Shown: in pieces, positions 18,684 to 57,188 of the stretch
How the letters are laid out: every line of letters starts with the position of its first letter
Numbering within the stretch: position 1 is the first letter of the stretch
Virus record (IMG/VR): IMGVR_UViG_3300025138_000014
Location: 87,330 to 151,329 of that record
Reading direction: 5' to 3' (one strand)
Source of the DNA: a virus
Length of the DNA stretch: 64,000 nucleotides
The notes under the pieces: model-generated
The model's input: only the letters and a program-made list of their open reading frames with translations
What the model was told of the DNA's origin: nothing
The model's database searches: none
Program-made: the position numbers and the translations under genes

Positions 18684-19055
18684 ATGACTAAGTTTAACAA
18701 ATCAGATTTTGAATATTACGGTGGATACTTACATTACACAGGCACTTATGATAATGCAGAAGTTTGGCCTGCAATCACTAAAGGCGGTACCAAAGTTCAC
18801 CCATCAAGAGTCGGTAAGCAGAAGCCACTTTTCATTGCTCGGTTTAAGCACAGCGGACCATTTACTAAAGCCAAGTTCCTTGCACAGCTTATCAAAAACT
18901 TCACAGTTGAAGAGTATGTAGAAGCAAGAAACCAAGATGGACTAGATAGTTCTCCACTTCAAATTCTTCGGAATAAAAATGAAGATTGGTACTACAAAGT
19001 ATTGTTTGCCTGGAAGAAGAAAACTGCACCAGGAAGATACTTGCATCTGGACTAA
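18684..19055 (+). CDS. conserved phage protein, unknown
   Basis: 123 aa, basic, soluble, in its own promoter-terminator unit. Its style (YYGGYLHYTG, lysine-rich C-terminus) resembles small early proteins of T4-like marine phages. No function assigned. Confidence 0.78.
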   Translation: MTKFNKSDFEYYGGYLHYTGTYDNAEVWPAITKGGTKVHPSRVGKQKPLFIARFKHSGPFTKAKFLAQLIKNFTVEEYVEARNQDGLDSSPLQILRNKNEDWYYKVLFAWKKKTAPGRYLHLD

Positions 19056-19070
19056 ATAAATCCTCCCTAT

Positions 19071-19098
19071 AAAGGAGTCCTTCGGGGCTCCTTTTTTT
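19071..19098 (+). terminator. Rho-independent terminator
   Basis: AAAGGAGTCC, TTCG loop, GGGCTCC, then seven T. It ends the early unit before the late block. Confidence 0.95.
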
Positions 19099-19099
19099 G

Positions 19100-19107
19100 T
19101 ATAAATA
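19100..19107 (+). promoter_or_regulatory. T4-type late promoter box
   Basis: TATAAATA immediately after the terminator and 20 nt before the start at 19128. Confidence 0.75.
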
Positions 19108-19127
19108 TTATAGATAGGGAGAATTAA

Positions 19128-20009
19128 ATGGCCGAACTAACAGAGACCCAAGAAGGTACACGACAAGCACAAAAAGGTTTTATCTATGAAAGAAATGTCT
19201 TTGATGCTTTGAAGAAACCAGTCTTTAATATTATCCCTGATGGGTTTAGTCCAGCTGGTGCATCATCTAATCAACCAGACTTGAAAATACAAAAGATGAT
19301 GAAAACTAACCCACCAAGAGTAGCAAAAAGTGGAGTTGAATTAAAGATTTCTGCTGCGGCTGCTGGGTCTCTTAAAATAGAATATAATCCAGATGCAAGA
19401 CAGGGTAGCAGATGGGCTGTAGGTAAAGAAGGTGAATTGAGTAAAGAAAAGAAATTCATTCAATCAGTGGCTGCAAGAGAGAAAATTGCACAAAAATTAA
19501 ATGCAAAACCAGAGGACGGCGGTTGGAGAACCAATAAGACACCATTTGCTTATATGGCACGTAAGGACAAAAGATCCGTTCCTCCGATGGAAAGATACGA
19601 GCAAGATATGAAAATGTATAAAAGCATTACAGGTTCTATGGATGCACGATACATTGAAAGATATTACAATTTAAAAGACACTTACTATATAAATATTGGT
19701 ACAAGGGGTTTCTATTTACTTGGAACAAAAAACCCTCTAAACATAAATCGAGCAAGGAGCGCCAAAGGATCTTATGAACCTATTATACCATTTTCTAGTG
19801 TTGCTCAAACATCTTGGAGGGCAAGAGTACAGAAGAAAACAGAGGCAGGTGGATATCAGTTCACGTTAGAATTTGTGTTTACTATACCTGCATATAATCG
19901 GTCTCCTTTAAATATCGGACCGATTAGATCAGATGGCAAGACAGTTGATATTTACAACATAAGGGCGCAAGCGGATAATCTACAGAGTATATTCGGAATG
20001 GGTCGTTAG
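19128..20009 (+). CDS. putative PD-(D/E)xK nuclease-like late protein
   Basis: 293 aa. The N-terminal third has the order expected for a restriction-fold nuclease: IYERNVFDALKKP, NQPDLKI with an acidic residue, then GVELKIS giving ExK. The rest is basic with beta-rich segments. It heads the late block. It could be an endonuclease or a structural protein that keeps the motif by chance. Confidence 0.6.
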   Translation: MAELTETQEGTRQAQKGFIYERNVFDALKKPVFNIIPDGFSPAGASSNQPDLKIQKMMKTNPPRVAKSGVELKISAAAAGSLKIEYNPDARQGSRWAVGKEGELSKEKKFIQSVAAREKIAQKLNAKPEDGGWRTNKTPFAYMARKDKRSVPPMERYEQDMKMYKSITGSMDARYIERYYNLKDTYYINIGTRGFYLLGTKNPLNINRARSAKGSYEPIIPFSSVAQTSWRARVQKKTEAGGYQFTLEFVFTIPAYNRSPLNIGPIRSDGKTVDIYNIRAQADNLQSIFGMGR

Positions 20010-20604: not shown

Positions 20605-21828
20605 ATGTTAACCTTTAGTCAACTCAAAGAACAAAAAAACATGCACATGACTCATATAGAGGATAAAGTCCTTTATGGTGGTGTGAAAGGAACAAGACAG
20701 GCTATACTTGCACTTCGAGAGTTGCGAGATATGCTAAAAGGAGAACATGATGGAACAGTTAGTGTTAAATGGGATGGTGCTCCTGCTATTTTTGCTGGCA
20801 TTGATCCGTCTGACGGTAAGTTTTTTGTTGCTAAAAAATCAATATTCAATAAAAATCCTAAAGTCTACAAGTCGGCATCTGATGTCAATTCTGATACTAC
20901 AGGTGATCTTGCTCAAAAGCTGGTGCTTGCTCTAAAGTATCTACCAGAGTTAGGTATCACAGGTGTTATTCAAGGCGACTATTTATTTGAACAATCAGAC
21001 TTAAAGAAAGAAAAAATCAAAGGAGATGACTATGTCACTTTCCACCCTAATACAATTCTATACGCAATCCCAGCCAACTCTCAAGAAGCAAAAGAAGTAC
21101 AATCTGCTAAACTGGGTATTGTCTGGCATACAACATATAATGGCGCAAGTTTTCAAGAGATGAGAGCATCGTACGGCGTGAATGTATCTAAATTTAAAAA
21201 GTCCAAAAACGTGTGGTCACAAGATGCTATGTTAACTGATATGACCAACTATACTATGTCAAAATCAGAAACGGAGACTGTAAATGATCATCTACAAAAA
21301 GCTGGTAAACTTTTTAACCAGATTAATTCAACTACCCTTAAAACTCTTGAAGCTAATCAAGAGTTGGCTAAACTCATTGAAATGTTCAATAATACTTATG
21401 TTCGGAAGGGTGAAATCGTTAGTAGTCCGGCTGCTCATGCTACCAAGCTTGTTACTTGGATATCTGAAAGGTATGCTAAGGAAATAACTAAGTTAAAGAC
21501 CGAGAAGGGAAAAGCAGGTAAACAAGCCAAACTAGATAGTATTCTGAGTTTCTTTTCTGGGTCTAATAAAGTATCATTAATTAAGATGTTTGAATTACAG
21601 CAAACCATTGTTTTGGCTAAACTAAACCTTATAAATATACTTAATAAGCTATCAAAGACAAAAACTTTTGTTAAGACCAAAAACGGATATAAGACGACTG
21701 GTCCAGAAGGTTACGTTGCTATAGATAGACTTGGTGGTGGTGCTGTTAAAATAGTTGATAGGATGGAATTTTCCTACAATAACTTCTCAGCTGATATATT
21801 AAAGGGATGGGATAAACCAGGAAGGTAA
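20605..21828 (+). CDS. ligase-like nucleotidyltransferase-fold protein (KWDG)
   Basis: 407 aa. VSVKWDGAPAIF matches the KxDG adenylation motif of DNA/RNA ligases and capping enzymes; KFFVAKKS, GVIQGDYLFE and LGIVWHT follow in the order of later ligase motifs. Cyanophages carry related proteins filed under a DUF (DUF6267, from memory). The N-terminus MLTFSQLKEQ resembles a capsid-targeting sequence, so it may travel in the virion. RNA or DNA end joining is plausible but unproven. Confidence 0.75.
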   Translation: MLTFSQLKEQKNMHMTHIEDKVLYGGVKGTRQAILALRELRDMLKGEHDGTVSVKWDGAPAIFAGIDPSDGKFFVAKKSIFNKNPKVYKSASDVNSDTTGDLAQKLVLALKYLPELGITGVIQGDYLFEQSDLKKEKIKGDDYVTFHPNTILYAIPANSQEAKEVQSAKLGIVWHTTYNGASFQEMRASYGVNVSKFKKSKNVWSQDAMLTDMTNYTMSKSETETVNDHLQKAGKLFNQINSTTLKTLEANQELAKLIEMFNNTYVRKGEIVSSPAAHATKLVTWISERYAKEITKLKTEKGKAGKQAKLDSILSFFSGSNKVSLIKMFELQQTIVLAKLNLINILNKLSKTKTFVKTKNGYKTTGPEGYVAIDRLGGGAVKIVDRMEFSYNNFSADILKGWDKPGR

Positions 21829-21831
21829 AAG

Positions 21832-22269
21832 ATGACTAAGTCATTAGAAGAAATACGTGAGAACCGTATTGTAGAAGAAAAGTGTGAAGATTGCGGTTGC
21901 GACATGGACAATCCAAAAGACGATTGTGATTGTAGTAACCATACGAATGTGGATGAAGCACTAACTATTTCACAGCGCCGTAATAAGTCAATCAGCATGA
22001 AAAGAAATAAAGCAAAAGTTGCTATTGGTAGAAAACGTGCCGCGAAAAAGATGGCTAGTAGTGCAGTTATTGGCAAGCGTGCTCAAAGACAAGCACGTAA
22101 TCAGATGGCTAAAAAGTTCACTAAAGATGTACCAAAAAGTGATTTAAGTCCAGCGAGAAAAGCTGCAATTGAGAAACGCTTAGATAAGATGAAAGGGCGT
22201 ATTAATAGAATAGCCAAGAAATTGGTTAAAGACGTCCGTAGAAAAGAAATTGAAAGAAAGCGCGGCTAG
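21832..22269 (+). CDS. basic DNA-binding-like late protein with Cys cluster
   Basis: 145 aa. The N-terminal 40 residues carry CEDCGCDMDNP...DCDC, a possible metal site. The remainder is very rich in Lys/Arg (SISMKRNKAKVAIGRKRAAKK), as expected for an internal protein that condenses DNA. Similar basic proteins are conserved next to the flanking genes in T4-like marine phages. Confidence 0.75.
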   Translation: MTKSLEEIRENRIVEEKCEDCGCDMDNPKDDCDCSNHTNVDEALTISQRRNKSISMKRNKAKVAIGRKRAAKKMASSAVIGKRAQRQARNQMAKKFTKDVPKSDLSPARKAAIEKRLDKMKGRINRIAKKLVKDVRRKEIERKRG

Positions 22270-22272
22270 ATT

Positions 22273-23217
22273 ATGAAGTATAGTTTTTCCGACTATTTAA
22301 TTGAAGCGGAAGGTGCGGTATATTTTACTTTTGGTAGAATGAACCCACCAACCGAAGGTCATGGTAAGTTACTTGATAAATTATCAAGTTCTGCCAGAAA
22401 TGCTCCTTATATGGTATTCCTATCTCAAACAAATGATAAGAATAAAAACCCACTACAGTATAAAGATAAAATAAAATTTGTTAGAAAAATGTTTCCAAAA
22501 CATGCACGACAAATTATACTTGATACCAAAATTAAAACTCCAATGCATGCCTTAGACCACTTATATAACAAAGGTTATAAAAAAGTTGTTATGATTGCAG
22601 GTAGTGATAGAGTAGTAGAATGGGATCTTCGACTTAATAAATACAACGGAAAAAAGAGACACGAAGGTTTCTATAATTTTGAAGGTGGTATTAAAGTTGT
22701 ATCAGCTGGAATTAGAGACCCAGACTCAAAAGATGTAGAAGGTTATTCTGGTACTAAGCAAAGAGAATCAGCTAAGGCCAATGACTTTCAAACATTCTCA
22801 CTAGCACTTCCAAGAACAATGTCTGATAAAGATGCTAAAACTCTTTTCAATACTGTTCGGACTGGCATGGGTCTCAAAGAAGAAAAAGCATTTAAAAACC
22901 ACGTTGAATTTAACCCTGTTTCAGAAACTCGTGAGGCATATGTCTCTGGAGATTATCTGAAAGAAGGCGATAAAGTGATCGTTAAAGATAGTGAAGAAAT
23001 TTGCAAAGTTACTATGTTAGGTGCAAATTATGTTATAGTAGAATCCAGTTCAGGTAAAAGATCACGTAAGTGGCTTGATGCAGTTGAATTGTTAAAAGAA
23101 AAGAAAAAAGATCAACCTGAAGAAGGAACACCTGCAGCTACAGAAAAAATGAAAAAAGCTGTAGCTGGTCAGAAATCGTTTAAAGCATATATCGGAGCAA
23201 CAAATGAAAAAGTTTAA
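22273..23217 (+). CDS. HxGH-type nucleotidyltransferase with C-terminal SH3-like domain
   Basis: 314 aa. AVYFTFGRMNPPTEGHGKL gives a NxxxxGH variant of the cytidylyltransferase motif, and VVMIAGSDRV follows as in the family; residues about 15-200 form this domain. A KOW/SH3-like segment (LKEGDKVIVKD) follows near residues 235-275, then a lysine-rich tail. The N-terminus MKYSFSDYLIE fits a capsid-targeting sequence with an LIE cut site. It may be a virion-carried NAD- or nucleotide-modifying enzyme (inference). Confidence 0.78.
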   Translation: MKYSFSDYLIEAEGAVYFTFGRMNPPTEGHGKLLDKLSSSARNAPYMVFLSQTNDKNKNPLQYKDKIKFVRKMFPKHARQIILDTKIKTPMHALDHLYNKGYKKVVMIAGSDRVVEWDLRLNKYNGKKRHEGFYNFEGGIKVVSAGIRDPDSKDVEGYSGTKQRESAKANDFQTFSLALPRTMSDKDAKTLFNTVRTGMGLKEEKAFKNHVEFNPVSETREAYVSGDYLKEGDKVIVKDSEEICKVTMLGANYVIVESSSGKRSRKWLDAVELLKEKKKDQPEEGTPAATEKMKKAVAGQKSFKAYIGATNEKV

Positions 23218-23368
23218 AAAATTTATGGATGAGGGTGAAAAAGGTGGACTATGGGATAACATTCATAAGAAACGTGCACGTATTAAAAAAGGTTCAGGCG
23301 AAAAGATGCGTAAACCTGGATCAAAAGGCGCCCCAACTAATGCAGATTTAAAAGCTGCACAGAACTAG
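23204..23368 (+). CDS. small basic late protein
   Basis: 54 aa, starting MKKFKKFMDEGEK; ATG 23204 overlaps the end of the previous gene by 14 nt. The body (WDNIHKKRARIKKGSGEKM, then RKPGSKGAPT) is a short basic motif I have seen in many tailed phages, with no known function. The first ten residues again resemble a capsid-targeting sequence. Confidence 0.8.
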   Translation: MKKFKKFMDEGEKGGLWDNIHKKRARIKKGSGEKMRKPGSKGAPTNADLKAAQN

Positions 23369-23370
23369 AT

Positions 23371-23643
23371 ATGAAAACCTTTAAATCTATTAGAGAAAAA
23401 GATAAGCATTATCGTTCCACTAAGTCTGGAGCAGGTATGACACAAAAAGGTGTTGATGCTGTAAATAGAAAGACTGGTGGAAACTTACAAACTGCAGTTA
23501 CTGGTAATCCTAAACCAGGATCTAAAGATGCGGGTAGAAGAAAATCATTCTGTGCTAGAATGGGTGGAATGAAAGGTCCTATGAAGGATGATAAAGGCCG
23601 CCCTACAAGAAAAGCTATGTCACTAAAAAGATGGAAATGTTAA
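23371..23643 (+). CDS. DUF6321-like basic phage protein
   Basis: 90 aa. RRKSFCARMGGMKGPM and the end KRWKC are the hallmark of a widespread family of small phage proteins (DUF6321, from memory). Two cysteines may bind metal. The N-terminus MKTFKSIREKDK fits the capsid-targeting pattern (IRE). Probably virion-internal. Confidence 0.82.
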   Translation: MKTFKSIREKDKHYRSTKSGAGMTQKGVDAVNRKTGGNLQTAVTGNPKPGSKDAGRRKSFCARMGGMKGPMKDDKGRPTRKAMSLKRWKC

Positions 23644-23647
23644 GACA

Positions 23648-24190
23648 ATGATGAAATTCCAAACATTTAACGAGTCGGCCCTGTCCGCGCTTAGAACAGC
23701 CACTAAAGCACATGCAGGACAAACTAGAAAAAGCGGCGGTGCGTATATTAACCACCCTAAAGAAGTTGCCCGCTTTGTAAAACAATTTAAAAAGTCGAAT
23801 AACTTATCAGCTATGATTCAAGCTGCTTATCTTCACGACACTCTTGAAGATACTGATACGACATATCAAGACTTAGTTAAACAGTTCGGCGCTCTTGTAG
23901 CTGATATGGTCCAAGAATTAACTACCGATAAAGCAGCATCTGATGCAATTGGTAAAGGTGAATACATTGCAAATAAAATGGCTAAAATGTCCAGTTGGGC
24001 ACTAGTTGTTAAGTTAGCAGACAGACTTGCCAATGTGCAAGATATAGATACGAGACCAGCAGACTTTCAAAAGAAGTATGCAGCTCAAACTACATTAGCA
24101 ATTAAAAAATTAAGAAGTGATCGGTACTTGAGTAAAACTCATAACAAGATTATAACTGCAATTGAGAAGAAAATTAAAGAATATGTGTAA
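23648..24190 (+). CDS. HD-domain (p)ppGpp hydrolase-like protein (SpoT/MESH1 type)
   Basis: 180 aa single-domain metal-dependent phosphohydrolase. The RelA/SpoT hydrolase landmarks are in order: AHAGQTRKSGGAYINHP, AAYLHDTLEDT with the HD pair and ED, and VVKLADRLANVQD. There is no synthetase, TGS or ACT domain, so it matches small alarmone hydrolases in size. Likely reaction: removal of pyrophosphate from (p)ppGpp, damping the host stringent response. The first residues MKFQTFNES fit the capsid-targeting pattern. Confidence 0.85.
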   Translation: MMKFQTFNESALSALRTATKAHAGQTRKSGGAYINHPKEVARFVKQFKKSNNLSAMIQAAYLHDTLEDTDTTYQDLVKQFGALVADMVQELTTDKAASDAIGKGEYIANKMAKMSSWALVVKLADRLANVQDIDTRPADFQKKYAAQTTLAIKKLRSDRYLSKTHNKIITAIEKKIKEYV

Positions 24191-24191
24191 G

Positions 24192-24199
24192 TATAAATA
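24192..24199 (+). promoter_or_regulatory. T4-type late promoter box
   Basis: TATAAATA directly after the hydrolase stop, 20 nt before the start at 24219. Confidence 0.7.
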
Positions 24200-24218
24200 A
24201 ATTTAATGGGGCACCACT

Positions 24219-24500
24219 ATGGCTGAGGAAAATGACCAGGTTAGATTAGACCGAATAGAACAGAAGTTGGATAAGTTGGCTGAAGCACTAATCACAATTG
24301 CACGTTTTGAAGAAAAAATGGATGCTTATAATGAGTATCGTCTAAACTCGTGGGAACGAATGAATAAGTTTTCAGAAAAATTAGATAACATAGAGAAAAA
24401 AGTTGACGAAAATGCTCACACAGTTACTGTTATTAACAAACTGTTTTGGGTTGCAATAGTTGCGGCGTCTGGCGCCATAGCAGCACAAGTATGGATGTAA
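24219..24500 (+). CDS. coiled-coil protein with C-terminal TM
   Basis: 93 aa: heptad-rich helix (about residues 5-68) and one membrane helix at 73-91. This layout resembles XhlA-type holin-associated proteins. It may belong to the lysis set or be a small virion membrane protein. Confidence 0.75.
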   Translation: MAEENDQVRLDRIEQKLDKLAEALITIARFEEKMDAYNEYRLNSWERMNKFSEKLDNIEKKVDENAHTVTVINKLFWVAIVAASGAIAAQVWM

Positions 24501-24512
24501 AAGGAAAAAACC

Positions 24513-25925
24513 ATGAAACATAATAACAGTCTGAGTGCCATACTATTGTCACTCAAAGAGAAAAAACTTCACCCTAACCAAAAAGAGTTAGACAAAGATG
24601 GTGATGGTGATATCGACCCTAAAGATTTTGCTATGCTTAGAAAGCAAGCAGGCAAGATCAATAAGAAAAAAGATAAAGAAGAAGTTGAAGAAGCGCAGAT
24701 GGATAAAATGAAAAAGGTTAGCAAAGGGTTTGATGATCGCCGCAGCGCCACGCTCCATAATGATCACCTAGTGGGAAGTAAAAAGGCTTCAGGCAAAAGC
24801 TATGTTGACAAACACTCAGATGGAAAATTTTACGTTGTTGATGTGAAAGAAGAATCAGTCAATGAATTGAGCAAGAAAACTCTTGGTAGTTATGCCAAGA
24901 AAGCTATGACTGATAAAGATACACAAAGTCGCTTTGCCACCGAATATGAAAAGCGTGGAATGGCAGCTAAAAGCACTGCAGTGCAGCACAAGAATTTCAA
25001 AAAAGCAAACCGTGCAGATGATAAGTTTCGTAATCGTACAACTGGTATCAACAAAGCTATTGATAAACTGACTAAAGAAAGCAGCCTAGACGAAATCAGC
25101 AAAACAAAGATGGGTCAATATATCAATCGCGCTCATTCTGATAAAGACACTCAGACTAAACGTGCAGGTATGTTTGATAAAAAAGGCATGGATGCTGATA
25201 AAGACAAAGATATGTACAAGCAATTTGATAACGCTGATAAGGCTCGTAAGAAAGCTGCAAACAGAACGGCTGGTATTGGTAAAGCGGTTAATAAACTGAC
25301 TAAAGAATCCAATATCTCAAATAAGTCGGCTGATAAAAAACCAGAAGAATATACTGATGAAAAAGGTATGAAGCGGACTAGAATGGTTCCTGTAGACAGA
25401 CAAGTTTTAAAAGATGCAATGCCTTCACAAGCTGATGCAATTAAAGCGTTGAATAAAAAGACTGCTGCTCAGAAAGCTAAAAATACAGATAAACTTAAAG
25501 CTGCGGGTAAGATGATGCCTACTAAGGAATCAATAGGTAAAACAGCTGGAGATAGTAGTTATCATAATCTGCAAAAAGCAAAAAGAATGGCTTCTAAAGA
25601 TGGCCACGACTATGATAAGTTACCAGCATATGACCGTACACATGATAAACACAGAGAGTATTACGATAACAAAGCTAAAACAACAAAAGAATCAACTGAC
25701 TGGCCTATCTATAGAAGAATTATGGAAAAAGCTAATCATACATCTGATTCAAAAACATCCGAGCCAATGGATAGTAAACTACAACCATTTGAGAAAAAAA
25801 TGGTAGATGCTCATAAAGTTACTCCTCCAAATGAACTTGTAGATGTAAATAAAGCAATTGAAAAAAATCTAAAGACTTTGTCAACAGCACCTATTAAACA
25901 AGCTGCTAAACCAAACGGTCAATAA
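24513..25925 (+). CDS. large basic late protein with EF-hand loop and repeats
   Basis: 470 aa, lysine-rich. DKDGDGDIDPKDF near residues 28-40 is a canonical calcium-binding EF-hand/dockerin-type loop. Residues about 116-190 and 192-265 are two copies of one module (LSKKTLGSYAKKA... / ISKTKMGQYINRA...), each ending KLTKES. Similar proteins in T4-like marine phages are virion-associated or hypothetical. Internal LxE/KES sites could be cut by the prohead protease (inference). Confidence 0.8.
   Translation: MKHNNSLSAILLSLKEKKLHPNQKELDKDGDGDIDPKDFAMLRKQAGKINKKKDKEEVEEAQMDKMKKVSKGFDDRRSATLHNDHLVGSKKASGKSYVDKHSDGKFYVVDVKEESVNELSKKTLGSYAKKAMTDKDTQSRFATEYEKRGMAAKSTAVQHKNFKKANRADDKFRNRTTGINKAIDKLTKESSLDEISKTKMGQYINRAHSDKDTQTKRAGMFDKKGMDADKDKDMYKQFDNADKARKKAANRTAGIGKAVNKLTKESNISNKSADKKPEEYTDEKGMKRTRMVPVDRQVLKDAMPSQADAIKALNKKTAAQKAKNTDKLKAAGKMMPTKESIGKTAGDSSYHNLQKAKRMASKDGHDYDKLPAYDRTHDKHREYYDNKAKTTKESTDWPIYRRIMEKANHTSDSKTSEPMDSKLQPFEKKMVDAHKVTPPNELVDVNKAIEKNLKTLSTAPIKQAAKPNGQ
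24858..25310 (+). repeat. two direct coding repeats of about 225 nt
   Basis: The two protein modules at residues 116-190 and 192-265 share the segments MTDKDTQSR/HSDKDTQTK, RFATEYEKRGM/RAGMFDKKGM and NRTTGINKAIDKLTKES/NRTAGIGKAVNKLTKES. Confidence 0.8.
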
Positions 25926-56783: not shown

Positions 56784-57188
56784 ATGCTATCATTTAAGAA
56801 CTATCTGGCTGAAGATACAAGCTGTGATCTAATAGGTCTACAGAAGATTAAGGCTTTTGAGAAGTTTGTCGATAAGATGTTTAAGAGGTATGATATTGAC
56901 TTCAACTTCACGAGACATTTTGGAGACCGTATGAGTGATAAGAGGAACACACCTTGTATCACCATGAAAGAGTTAGCCAATTTTATCCAAAAGATATATA
57001 AGAATGCAGGCAAATCACTCAAAGCTGAGAAGGGTGCCGAAGCAGTTATTAAAGATATGCAGTCAGACTTAAACATACCTATTGCGGTTAAATACGATCA
57101 ACGTAAAGATGAGTTTGATGTAGTAATGAAAACAATAATGCGTAAGAAGAATTTTAAAACCCCTAACAAATTAATTACTTACAAATAA
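56784..57188 (+). CDS. conserved phage protein with capsid-targeting-like N-terminus
   Basis: 134 aa. MLSFKNYLAEDT fits the T4 capsid-targeting pattern with an LAE cut site. The body (FEKFVDKMFKRYDIDFNF and AEAVIKDMQSDLN) matches a family conserved in cyanophages. AACGGAG ribosome site just after the tmRNA. Confidence 0.8.
   Translation: MLSFKNYLAEDTSCDLIGLQKIKAFEKFVDKMFKRYDIDFNFTRHFGDRMSDKRNTPCITMKELANFIQKIYKNAGKSLKAEKGAEAVIKDMQSDLNIPIAVKYDQRKDEFDVVMKTIMRKKNFKTPNKLITYK

Follow-up and report, generated by a model that had tools for sequence, protein, structure and literature searches.

Capsid-targeting-like N-termini on enzymes and basic proteins of a marine T4-like phage

Why would several genes of a T4-like phage, coding for proteins as different as an alarmone hydrolase and a cytidylyltransferase, begin with much the same short N-terminal sequence? 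The genes in question lie in a 64,000-nucleotide stretch of DNA (the window), which is the final 64 kb of the 151,329-base virus record IMGVR_UViG_3300025138_000014 (positions 87,330 to 151,329), and they are named here by their start positions in the window; positions in the whole record are marked as genome positions. The nearest isolates of this phage are Phage C48C1, the pelagiphage HTVC008M and cyanophages, all of them placed under Kyanoviridae. The original prediction held that the N-termini of six window proteins (20605, 22273, 23204, 23371, 23648 and 56784) resemble the ten-residue capsid-targeting sequence of the T4 internal proteins, ending in the hydrophobic-x-E site of the prohead protease. 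All six reading frames are indeed open and start as predicted, except that 23648 actually begins MMKFQTFNES; the tag of 23648 ends in F-N-E, those of the other five in [LIM]-x-E. The range given for the set, 20605-25925, was too long, since 24219 and 24513 carry no clear tag though they lie inside it. On the evidence that follows, we regard it as highly probable that the tagged N-termini are T4-type capsid-targeting sequences.

In the T4 internal protein IPIII, suppressor mutagenesis assigned residues 4 and 7 to targeting and residues 8 and 10 to processing (PMC9026906). Among the six named window proteins, five have F4, the one-residue-longer 22273 has F5, and position 7 is aromatic or hydrophobic; the processing site, I/L8-x-E10, is clear in 22273, 23204 and 56784, and comes one residue early in 20605 and 23371. 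Relatives carry comparable sequences (an arrow marks the predicted cut): MENFKTHITE↓, MLRFGNYLTE↓ and MISFKQTITE↓, at the same place, in DUF6267 proteins, the family of 20605, in which F4 and E9 are invariant among 23 aligned homologs; MINSFSQFLVE↓, the consensus of the cytidylyltransferase family of 22273 (45 of its 60 distinct N-termini); MKSFIAFLSE and MQSFKSYIIE in relatives of 23371; and either MKSFKQYISE↓ or a later (second) L-N-E↓SAL site in relatives of 23648. The neighboring 21832 has only an imperfect tag, and the full tag is found in its relatives (MLSFKQFVSE in C48C1, MLKFKHFFTE in an IMG/VR record). More than 12 distinct N-termini among IMG/VR relatives of 21832 (e.g., MLKFKDLITVDY, MAVGFKDFLTVDY) keep the pattern at positions 4, 7 and 8, but V-D-Y stands at their end where the tag has E. 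An Asp at position 10 in T4 permits targeting while blocking processing, and these relatives could for that reason be targeted yet remain uncut.

For statistics, the genome was read piecewise with a home-made gene caller, because of which the start codons of its 214 called genes are provisional. A strict N-terminal motif (F/Y, two residues, an aromatic or hydrophobic residue, then [ILVMF]-x-E) was matched by 7 of the 214 genes, against 0.65 +/- 0.82 after shuffling of each N-terminus, and a looser form that also admits 22273 and 21832 was matched by 10, against 2.2 expected. The six consecutive genes from 20605 to 23648 all match the looser form, compared with 4 of the 208 others; the resulting post hoc p of ~2e-9 is not to be over-read, because the expression was written with the six already known. 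Two of the matches in the genome, 60844 and 76393, are probably false. A very loose test, hydrophobic-x-E anywhere within residues 8-12, found 24 against 19 expected, i.e., no excess over chance; the signal of the tag is carried by the aromatic positions. When IMG/VR homologs were used to train a position-specific score matrix, it ranked 56784 and 22273 first here, and the cytidylyltransferase and kinase in cyanophage S-CREM2; it was over-fitted and penalised the short-register tags, which is why the simple motifs are reported. Applied to T4 as a control, the same expression recovered IPII and IPIII, together with gp2, gene 61.1 and dda, the last of these probably false. In the T4 genome (NC_000866; our loci L173 and L174), gene 61.1 (18966-19130) starts MKTFKEFIKED and gp2 (76061-76885) starts MAIFQIINES; the former is predicted from its N-terminus to be an additional internal protein.

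A capsid-targeting sequence calls to mind the prohead protease and its substrates, and the original prediction had proposed a search for a gp21-type protease elsewhere in the genome. One is indeed present (PF03420, E 4e-43, genome 71747-72175), in a T4-type head module outside the window (genome 69640-74703) that comprises gp20-type, gp67-like, gp21-, gp22- and gp23-type genes; gp20, gp67 and gp22 were assigned by gene order, and the gp23 capsid protein was identified with E 3e-150. The phage's own gp23 has a predicted protease site at residue 53, SLTE↓AAPT, with counterparts in T4 (FLTE↓AEIG) and S-CREM2 (LLTE↓APTQ), all of the L-T-E↓A type and of the same [LIV]-x-E kind that ends the tags. 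Beyond the genes of the window, the clearest match in the genome is MKTFKHIREA at genome 71447, in prohead-core position and nearly identical to MKTFKSIREK of 23371.

The persistence of the tag in relatives could be examined without circularity, as IMG/VR loci were picked by the bodies of the DUF6267 and HD proteins and their N-termini were inspected afterwards. The motif was found on 94% of the distinct N-termini of DUF6267 homologs, 75% of those of the cytidylyltransferase and 61% of those of the HD protein, where 1-5% was expected, and on 0% of those of homologs of the neighbors 24219 and 26734. The tag is thus kept in three unrelated families, and its persistence on homologs selected by their bodies is non-circular evidence. 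Within these families, information peaks at positions 4 (F, ~4 bits), 7 (Y/F), 8 (I/L) and 10 (E), which coincide with those mapped in T4 IPIII, and the codons at the conserved positions vary synonymously (TTT/TTC, GAA/GAG). A motif search in related phages, likewise proposed at the outset, was carried out on 157 related loci: the motif stands at 447 of 8289 start-region Met codons, compared with 4 after shuffling, and at 6 of 4838 internal ones. All 438 motif-bearing reading frames (438/438) are on the coding strand, and their bodies fall into 31 clusters, 21 of them with at least two members; overall, the number of unrelated protein bodies bearing the tag is about 20 to 30. In loci around cyanophage-type DUF6267 genes (80) the motif counts were 71 vs 3, and around pelagiphage-type genes (80) 46 vs 3; there the tag is found on other proteins. 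A second class, one residue shorter (M-K-x-F-K-x-[IL]-R-E), is common and is the class of the prohead-core gene.

Tagged homologs have also been found in virions. The non-structural virion proteins in the S-CREM2 proteome, a table of protein-level coverage (Table 3, PMC10665884), include a S-adenosylmethionine (SAM) hydrolase, a kinase, a cytidylyltransferase and a Cas9-like protein. The translated N-termini of the first three are MKDFDSFLEE, VKRFDAFLTEE and MKNFSSFLTEA, respectively, and gp13 (MKDLHSFLTE), gp15 (MNFSEFNES) and gp136 (MQTFSMFFSE) are further tagged proteins of that table. Of the non-structural S-CREM2 coding sequences (CDS), 6 of the 14 with tag-like N-termini were detected in the virion, compared with 20 of the 179 without (p 0.005); across all CDS of that phage the association falls short of significance (p 0.10), since capsid and tail proteins reach the virion by other means. 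The cytidylyltransferase of cyanophage S-SM1, T4-GC190, is an experimentally identified virion protein (PMC3037559), and it starts MKKFSAFLNEA. Both cytidylyltransferases are homologous to 22273 and were detected by mass spectrometry, and no loading signal is mentioned for them in the available parts of the two papers. The Cas9-like protein of S-CREM2, gp12 (L169, 7704-10313, minus strand), has LRFASFMAEA at residues 17-26, preceded by a CTG codon, which means either that its start is misannotated or that the tag can act from an internal position. Two non-capsid proteins, at S-CREM2 128342-129235 (L170) and P-SSM4 L009:14661-15200, share the pattern G-[FY]-T-G-A-...-G-P-x-A-G-Y-D-P with the start of the mature major capsid protein, and the former is in the S-CREM2 virion proteome table. 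Taken together, the protease, the gp23 site, the conservation of positions 4, 7, 8 and 10, and the tagged homologs in virions bear out the core of the original prediction.

Table 1. Genes, N-terminal tags and related features (window positions unless marked as genome; ↓, predicted cut)
Feature	Position	Strand	Remarks
T4-type late-promoter-like box, TATAAATA	19100..19107	+	28 nt upstream of 19128
Operon-leading 293-aa protein, untagged here	19128..20009	+	
DUF6267 protein, 407 aa, pI 9.5	20605..21828	+	PF19782, E 1e-101
Capsid-targeting-like tag MLTFSQLKE↓ of DUF6267 protein	20605..20631	+	Short register: F4, L7, E9
Very basic 145-aa protein, pI 10.2	21832..22269	+	PHROG 23027
Imperfect tag MTKSLEEIRE↓NRIVEE of 21832	starts 21832	+	Without F4
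HIGH-type cytidylyl/NMN-adenylyltransferase-like protein with C-terminal small domain, 314 aa, pI 9.5	22273..23217	+	
Tag MKYSFSDYLIE↓ of cytidylyltransferase	22273..22305	+	One residue longer: F5, Y8, L9, E11
54-aa basic protein, pI 10.3	23204..23368	+	phrog_16028; overlaps end of 22273
Tag MKKFKKFMDE↓ of 54-aa basic protein	23204..23233	+	F4, F7, M8, E10
DUF6321 protein, 90 aa, pI 11.0	23371..23643	+	PF19846, E 1e-19
Class-2 tag MKTFKSIRE↓	23371..23397	+	Nearly identical to MKTFKHIRE↓ of prohead-core gene
MESH1/SpoT-type HD (p)ppGpp hydrolase, 180 aa	23648..24190	+	PF13328, E 1.5e-16
Tag MMKFQTFNE↓SAL	23648..23674	+	F4, F7 kept; cleavage site F-N-E not canonical
470-aa basic repeat-containing protein	24513..25925	+	Internal VNE↓LSKK, LDE↓ISKT sites; no canonical tag
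134-aa basic protein, pI 9.6	56784..57188	+	Distant from main cluster; PHROG 23027, same as 21832
Tag MLSFKNYLAE↓	56784..56813	+	Perfect: F4, Y7, L8, E10; relative MKRFNSYLDE
Prohead-core-position gene, N-terminus MKTFKHIREA	genome 71447		Between gp67-like gene and gp21 protease gene

What, then, would be loaded? The original prediction had listed two nucleotidyltransferase-fold proteins, an alarmone hydrolase and DNA-condensing proteins. The hydrolase is supported: 23648 aligns with MESH1 (3nr1) from residue 12 onward (E 6e-17), its catalytic motifs are present and aligned (H..HDTLED..DRLAN, i.e., HDxxED and D-x-x-x-N), and by these matches it is a MESH1/SpoT-type (p)ppGpp hydrolase. It shares the HD fold and the catalytic motifs with MESH1 and the small alarmone hydrolases, and differs from them in being phage-encoded and in having an extra N-terminal tag of ~11 residues; its homologs in Burkholderia, Vibrio and Erwinia phages begin at the domain. 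As for the nucleotidyltransferases, 22273 is indeed cytidylyltransferase-like (PF01467, E 3e-5; Pfam CTP_transf_like, 24.6 bits with a cut-off of 21; phrog_3041/395), while the case of the DUF6267 protein is moderate, combining invariant residues with weak fold matches. In 44 sequences of 34-72% identity, K55-W-D-G, E368-G-Y-V and K382 are invariant, as a KxDG motif I with motifs IV and V. Residues ~50-211 of two AlphaFold models (mean pLDDT 68 and 73.5) align with T4 Rnl2, REL1, Trl1, archaeal RNA ligases and RNA/DNA ligases at a modest Z of 5-7, with K55 at or beside the catalytic lysine (K92 in the Palaeococcus ligase entry). Foldseek with the whole DUF6267 model returned no significant match, helical matches scoring like the ligases, and sequence searches for a solved relative found none for DUF6267 or 22273. 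With this moderate support, 20605 is predicted to be a covalent nucleotidyltransferase of the ligase/capping type, with K55 as its catalytic residue. PADLOC found no known defence family in the five window proteins tested.

The tagged proteins have pI values of 9.5-11, compared with a genome median of 5.3 (p 4e-5), and 23204, 23371, 56784 and 21832 are small and very basic; the DNA-condensing role is a candidate one, suggested by the high pI. In relatives, several of the small-protein segments occur as parts of longer fusion proteins, some of which have internal [LI]-D-E↓[IL]-S sites, and the 23204 segment is part of polyproteins of the cytidylyltransferase cluster. Because of these fusions and internal sites, some of the cargo may be made as polyproteins that are cut by the same protease, which we offer as a lead. 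Both 24513-25925 and a basic protein at L147:5881-7698 contain repeated [VL]-[ND]-E↓[LI]-S-K segments, resembling the spaced protease sites of a polyprotein; 24513 is a possible cleaved polyprotein, and some of its relatives start MKTFKDLRE or MKTFGKYLEE. Homologs of the operon-leading 19128 (44% identity; L091, L124, L153) start MDSFKGYISE, and the tag has therefore been gained or lost on that protein. Boxes of the sequence TATAAATA stand 27-30 nt upstream of 19128, of 24219 (box at 24192) and of the core gene at genome 71447 (box at genome 71417); since the + strand has 26 such boxes with 16 expected, those before 19128 and 24219 are only suggestive of late promoters. The related loci also encode tagged proteins that the window lacks, among them an ADP-ribosyltransferase-like protein (PF03496), a type II restriction-like protein, an HNH nuclease, a tRNA nucleotidyltransferase (PF01743), and a DUF3008 protein whose match to EcoRI stayed below threshold. 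Tagged proteins at L123:5757-6695 (ADP-ribosyltransferase-like), L128:5531-6754 (tRNA nucleotidyltransferase) and L062:4440-5453 (type II restriction-like) are predicted from their N-termini to be further injected cargo.

Could the shared N-termini have another explanation? Short amphipathic N-termini may happen to contain F and E, the motif is short, and a few genome matches (60844, 76393) are probably false; but chance does not account for the excess in the related loci (447 vs 4 shuffled), its confinement to the coding strand or its persistence across divergent homologs. Chance resemblance was accordingly refuted for the families as a whole and has next to no probability as a general explanation, though it is possible for individual weak cases such as 21832. 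A different targeting or regulatory sequence, e.g., an address for the membrane or the nucleoid, or a start region that enhances translation and is common to the late operons of these phages, would fit the clustering of the tagged genes, which are probably co-transcribed, and codon bias can be common to start regions. The conservation is at the amino acid level, with synonymous variation, and peaks at the T4 positions; moreover, 24219 and 26734 lack the tag in the same operons, whereas single genes elsewhere have it (56784; S-CREM2 gp6 and gp13-15), and we consider such a signal very improbable. Somewhat less improbable, yet still unlikely, is that the tags are real prohead-core signals on core or assembly components that are consumed or degraded in the prohead rather than delivered active. 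The closest twin of a window tag is in the prohead-core position (71447), and several tagged proteins are small and basic; against this, the tagged bodies include conserved enzymes with intact catalytic motifs (HDTLED, KWDG) on ~30 unrelated scaffolds, and tagged enzymes persist in the mature virions of S-CREM2 and S-SM1.

Capsid targeting of the T4 type therefore remains the preferred explanation, and several observations weigh against it. In 20605, 23371 and 23648 the tag is shorter by one residue, and in 23648 the [ILV]-x-E site is replaced by F-N-E. DUF6267 or cytidylyltransferase homologs are untagged in several cyanophages and pelagiphages (Syn1 MSNVKQLKHLEHLED, HTVC008M MYNDLLVEDKNTH); loading is thus not universal for these enzymes, and the tag must have been gained or lost on given ones. 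In Syn1-type phages the C-terminal cytidylyltransferase domain is split off and begins MKDFKKLREEA, with the catalytic part untagged. Eight tag-like N-termini of S-CREM2 are undetected in its virion table, so the motif alone gives false positives, and the authors of that study warn of possible co-purification in CsCl (PMC10665884). Finally, virion presence is known for homologs in S-CREM2 and S-SM1, whereas the present phage, 22273 included, is known from sequence alone.

Comparison with known systems puts the tags in perspective. The T4 internal proteins IPI, IPII and IPIII (MKTYQEFIAE) are likewise basic, with an N-terminal signal of ~10 residues having aromatic residues at 4 and 7, I/L at 8 and E at 10, a gp21-type protease in the genome and an L-T-E↓A site in gp23. 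They differ in that the cargo bodies of these marine Kyanoviridae-type phages are unrelated to theirs and include recognisable enzymes, that the shorter register (F4, I/L7, E9) is common here, and that cleavage and injection are here predicted from the genes. T4 Alt, an injected ADP-ribosyltransferase, similarly is an enzyme kept in the head behind a short propeptide, and the tagged protein at L123 is its counterpart in kind; among the tagged window genes, no homolog of Alt was recognised, and the enzymes there are instead a (p)ppGpp hydrolase and nucleotidyltransferases. The ejection proteins of phiKZ and SPN3US are also packaged in the head and matured by a gp21-related protease (PMC9026906). 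Their cleavage sites, in contrast to the tags described here, are of the S/A-x-E type in phiKZ. We know of no ten-residue label shared by these ejection proteins.

By analogy with T4, the following course of events is envisaged. Late in infection, the tagged proteins would bind the prohead core through residues 4 (F) and 7 (aromatic or hydrophobic) and be enclosed as gp23 assembles around it. The gp21-type protease would then cut after the Glu of [ILV]-x-E, releasing the mature enzyme within the head; its positive charge would keep it with the DNA until it is ejected with the genome into the next host. The cargo would comprise the MESH1-like hydrolase, the cytidylyl/NMN-adenylyltransferase-like enzyme, the ligase-type DUF6267 nucleotidyltransferase, and four basic proteins of small or medium size (23204, 23371, 56784 and probably 21832). 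That this cargo is ready to act at injection, as originally proposed, and that binding, cleavage, injection and enzyme action all occur in this phage, are likewise suggested by analogy; the most likely effect would be suppression of the stringent response and adjustment of nucleotide and RNA metabolism before phage genes are expressed. With a more modest degree of confidence, we favor the broader view that the tag serves marine T4-like phages as a general, exchangeable loading code, carried by dozens of unrelated proteins (the alarmone hydrolase, nucleotidyltransferases, an ADP-ribosyltransferase, restriction-like and HNH nucleases, a SAM hydrolase and a kinase), that the set of injected effectors can be read from N-termini alone, and that this phage opens infection by destroying host ppGpp. 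The proposed mechanism is that established for T4, capsid targeting, but in a lineage for which the open-licence literature searched held no earlier proposal of capsid-targeting sequences in cyanophages or pelagiphages, and the cargo is unexpectedly broad and rich in enzymes.

Only a few laboratory phages have had the contents of their heads determined. If the tags work as in T4, a ten-residue pattern would turn genomes into lists of injected proteins for one of the most abundant groups of marine viruses, and would account for the presence of cytidylyltransferases, kinases and SAM hydrolases in the virion proteomes of cyanophages. Both the stringent response and restriction would then be countered before phage transcription begins, and the phage would inject, among other proteins, an enzyme that destroys ppGpp, the starvation signal of bacteria.

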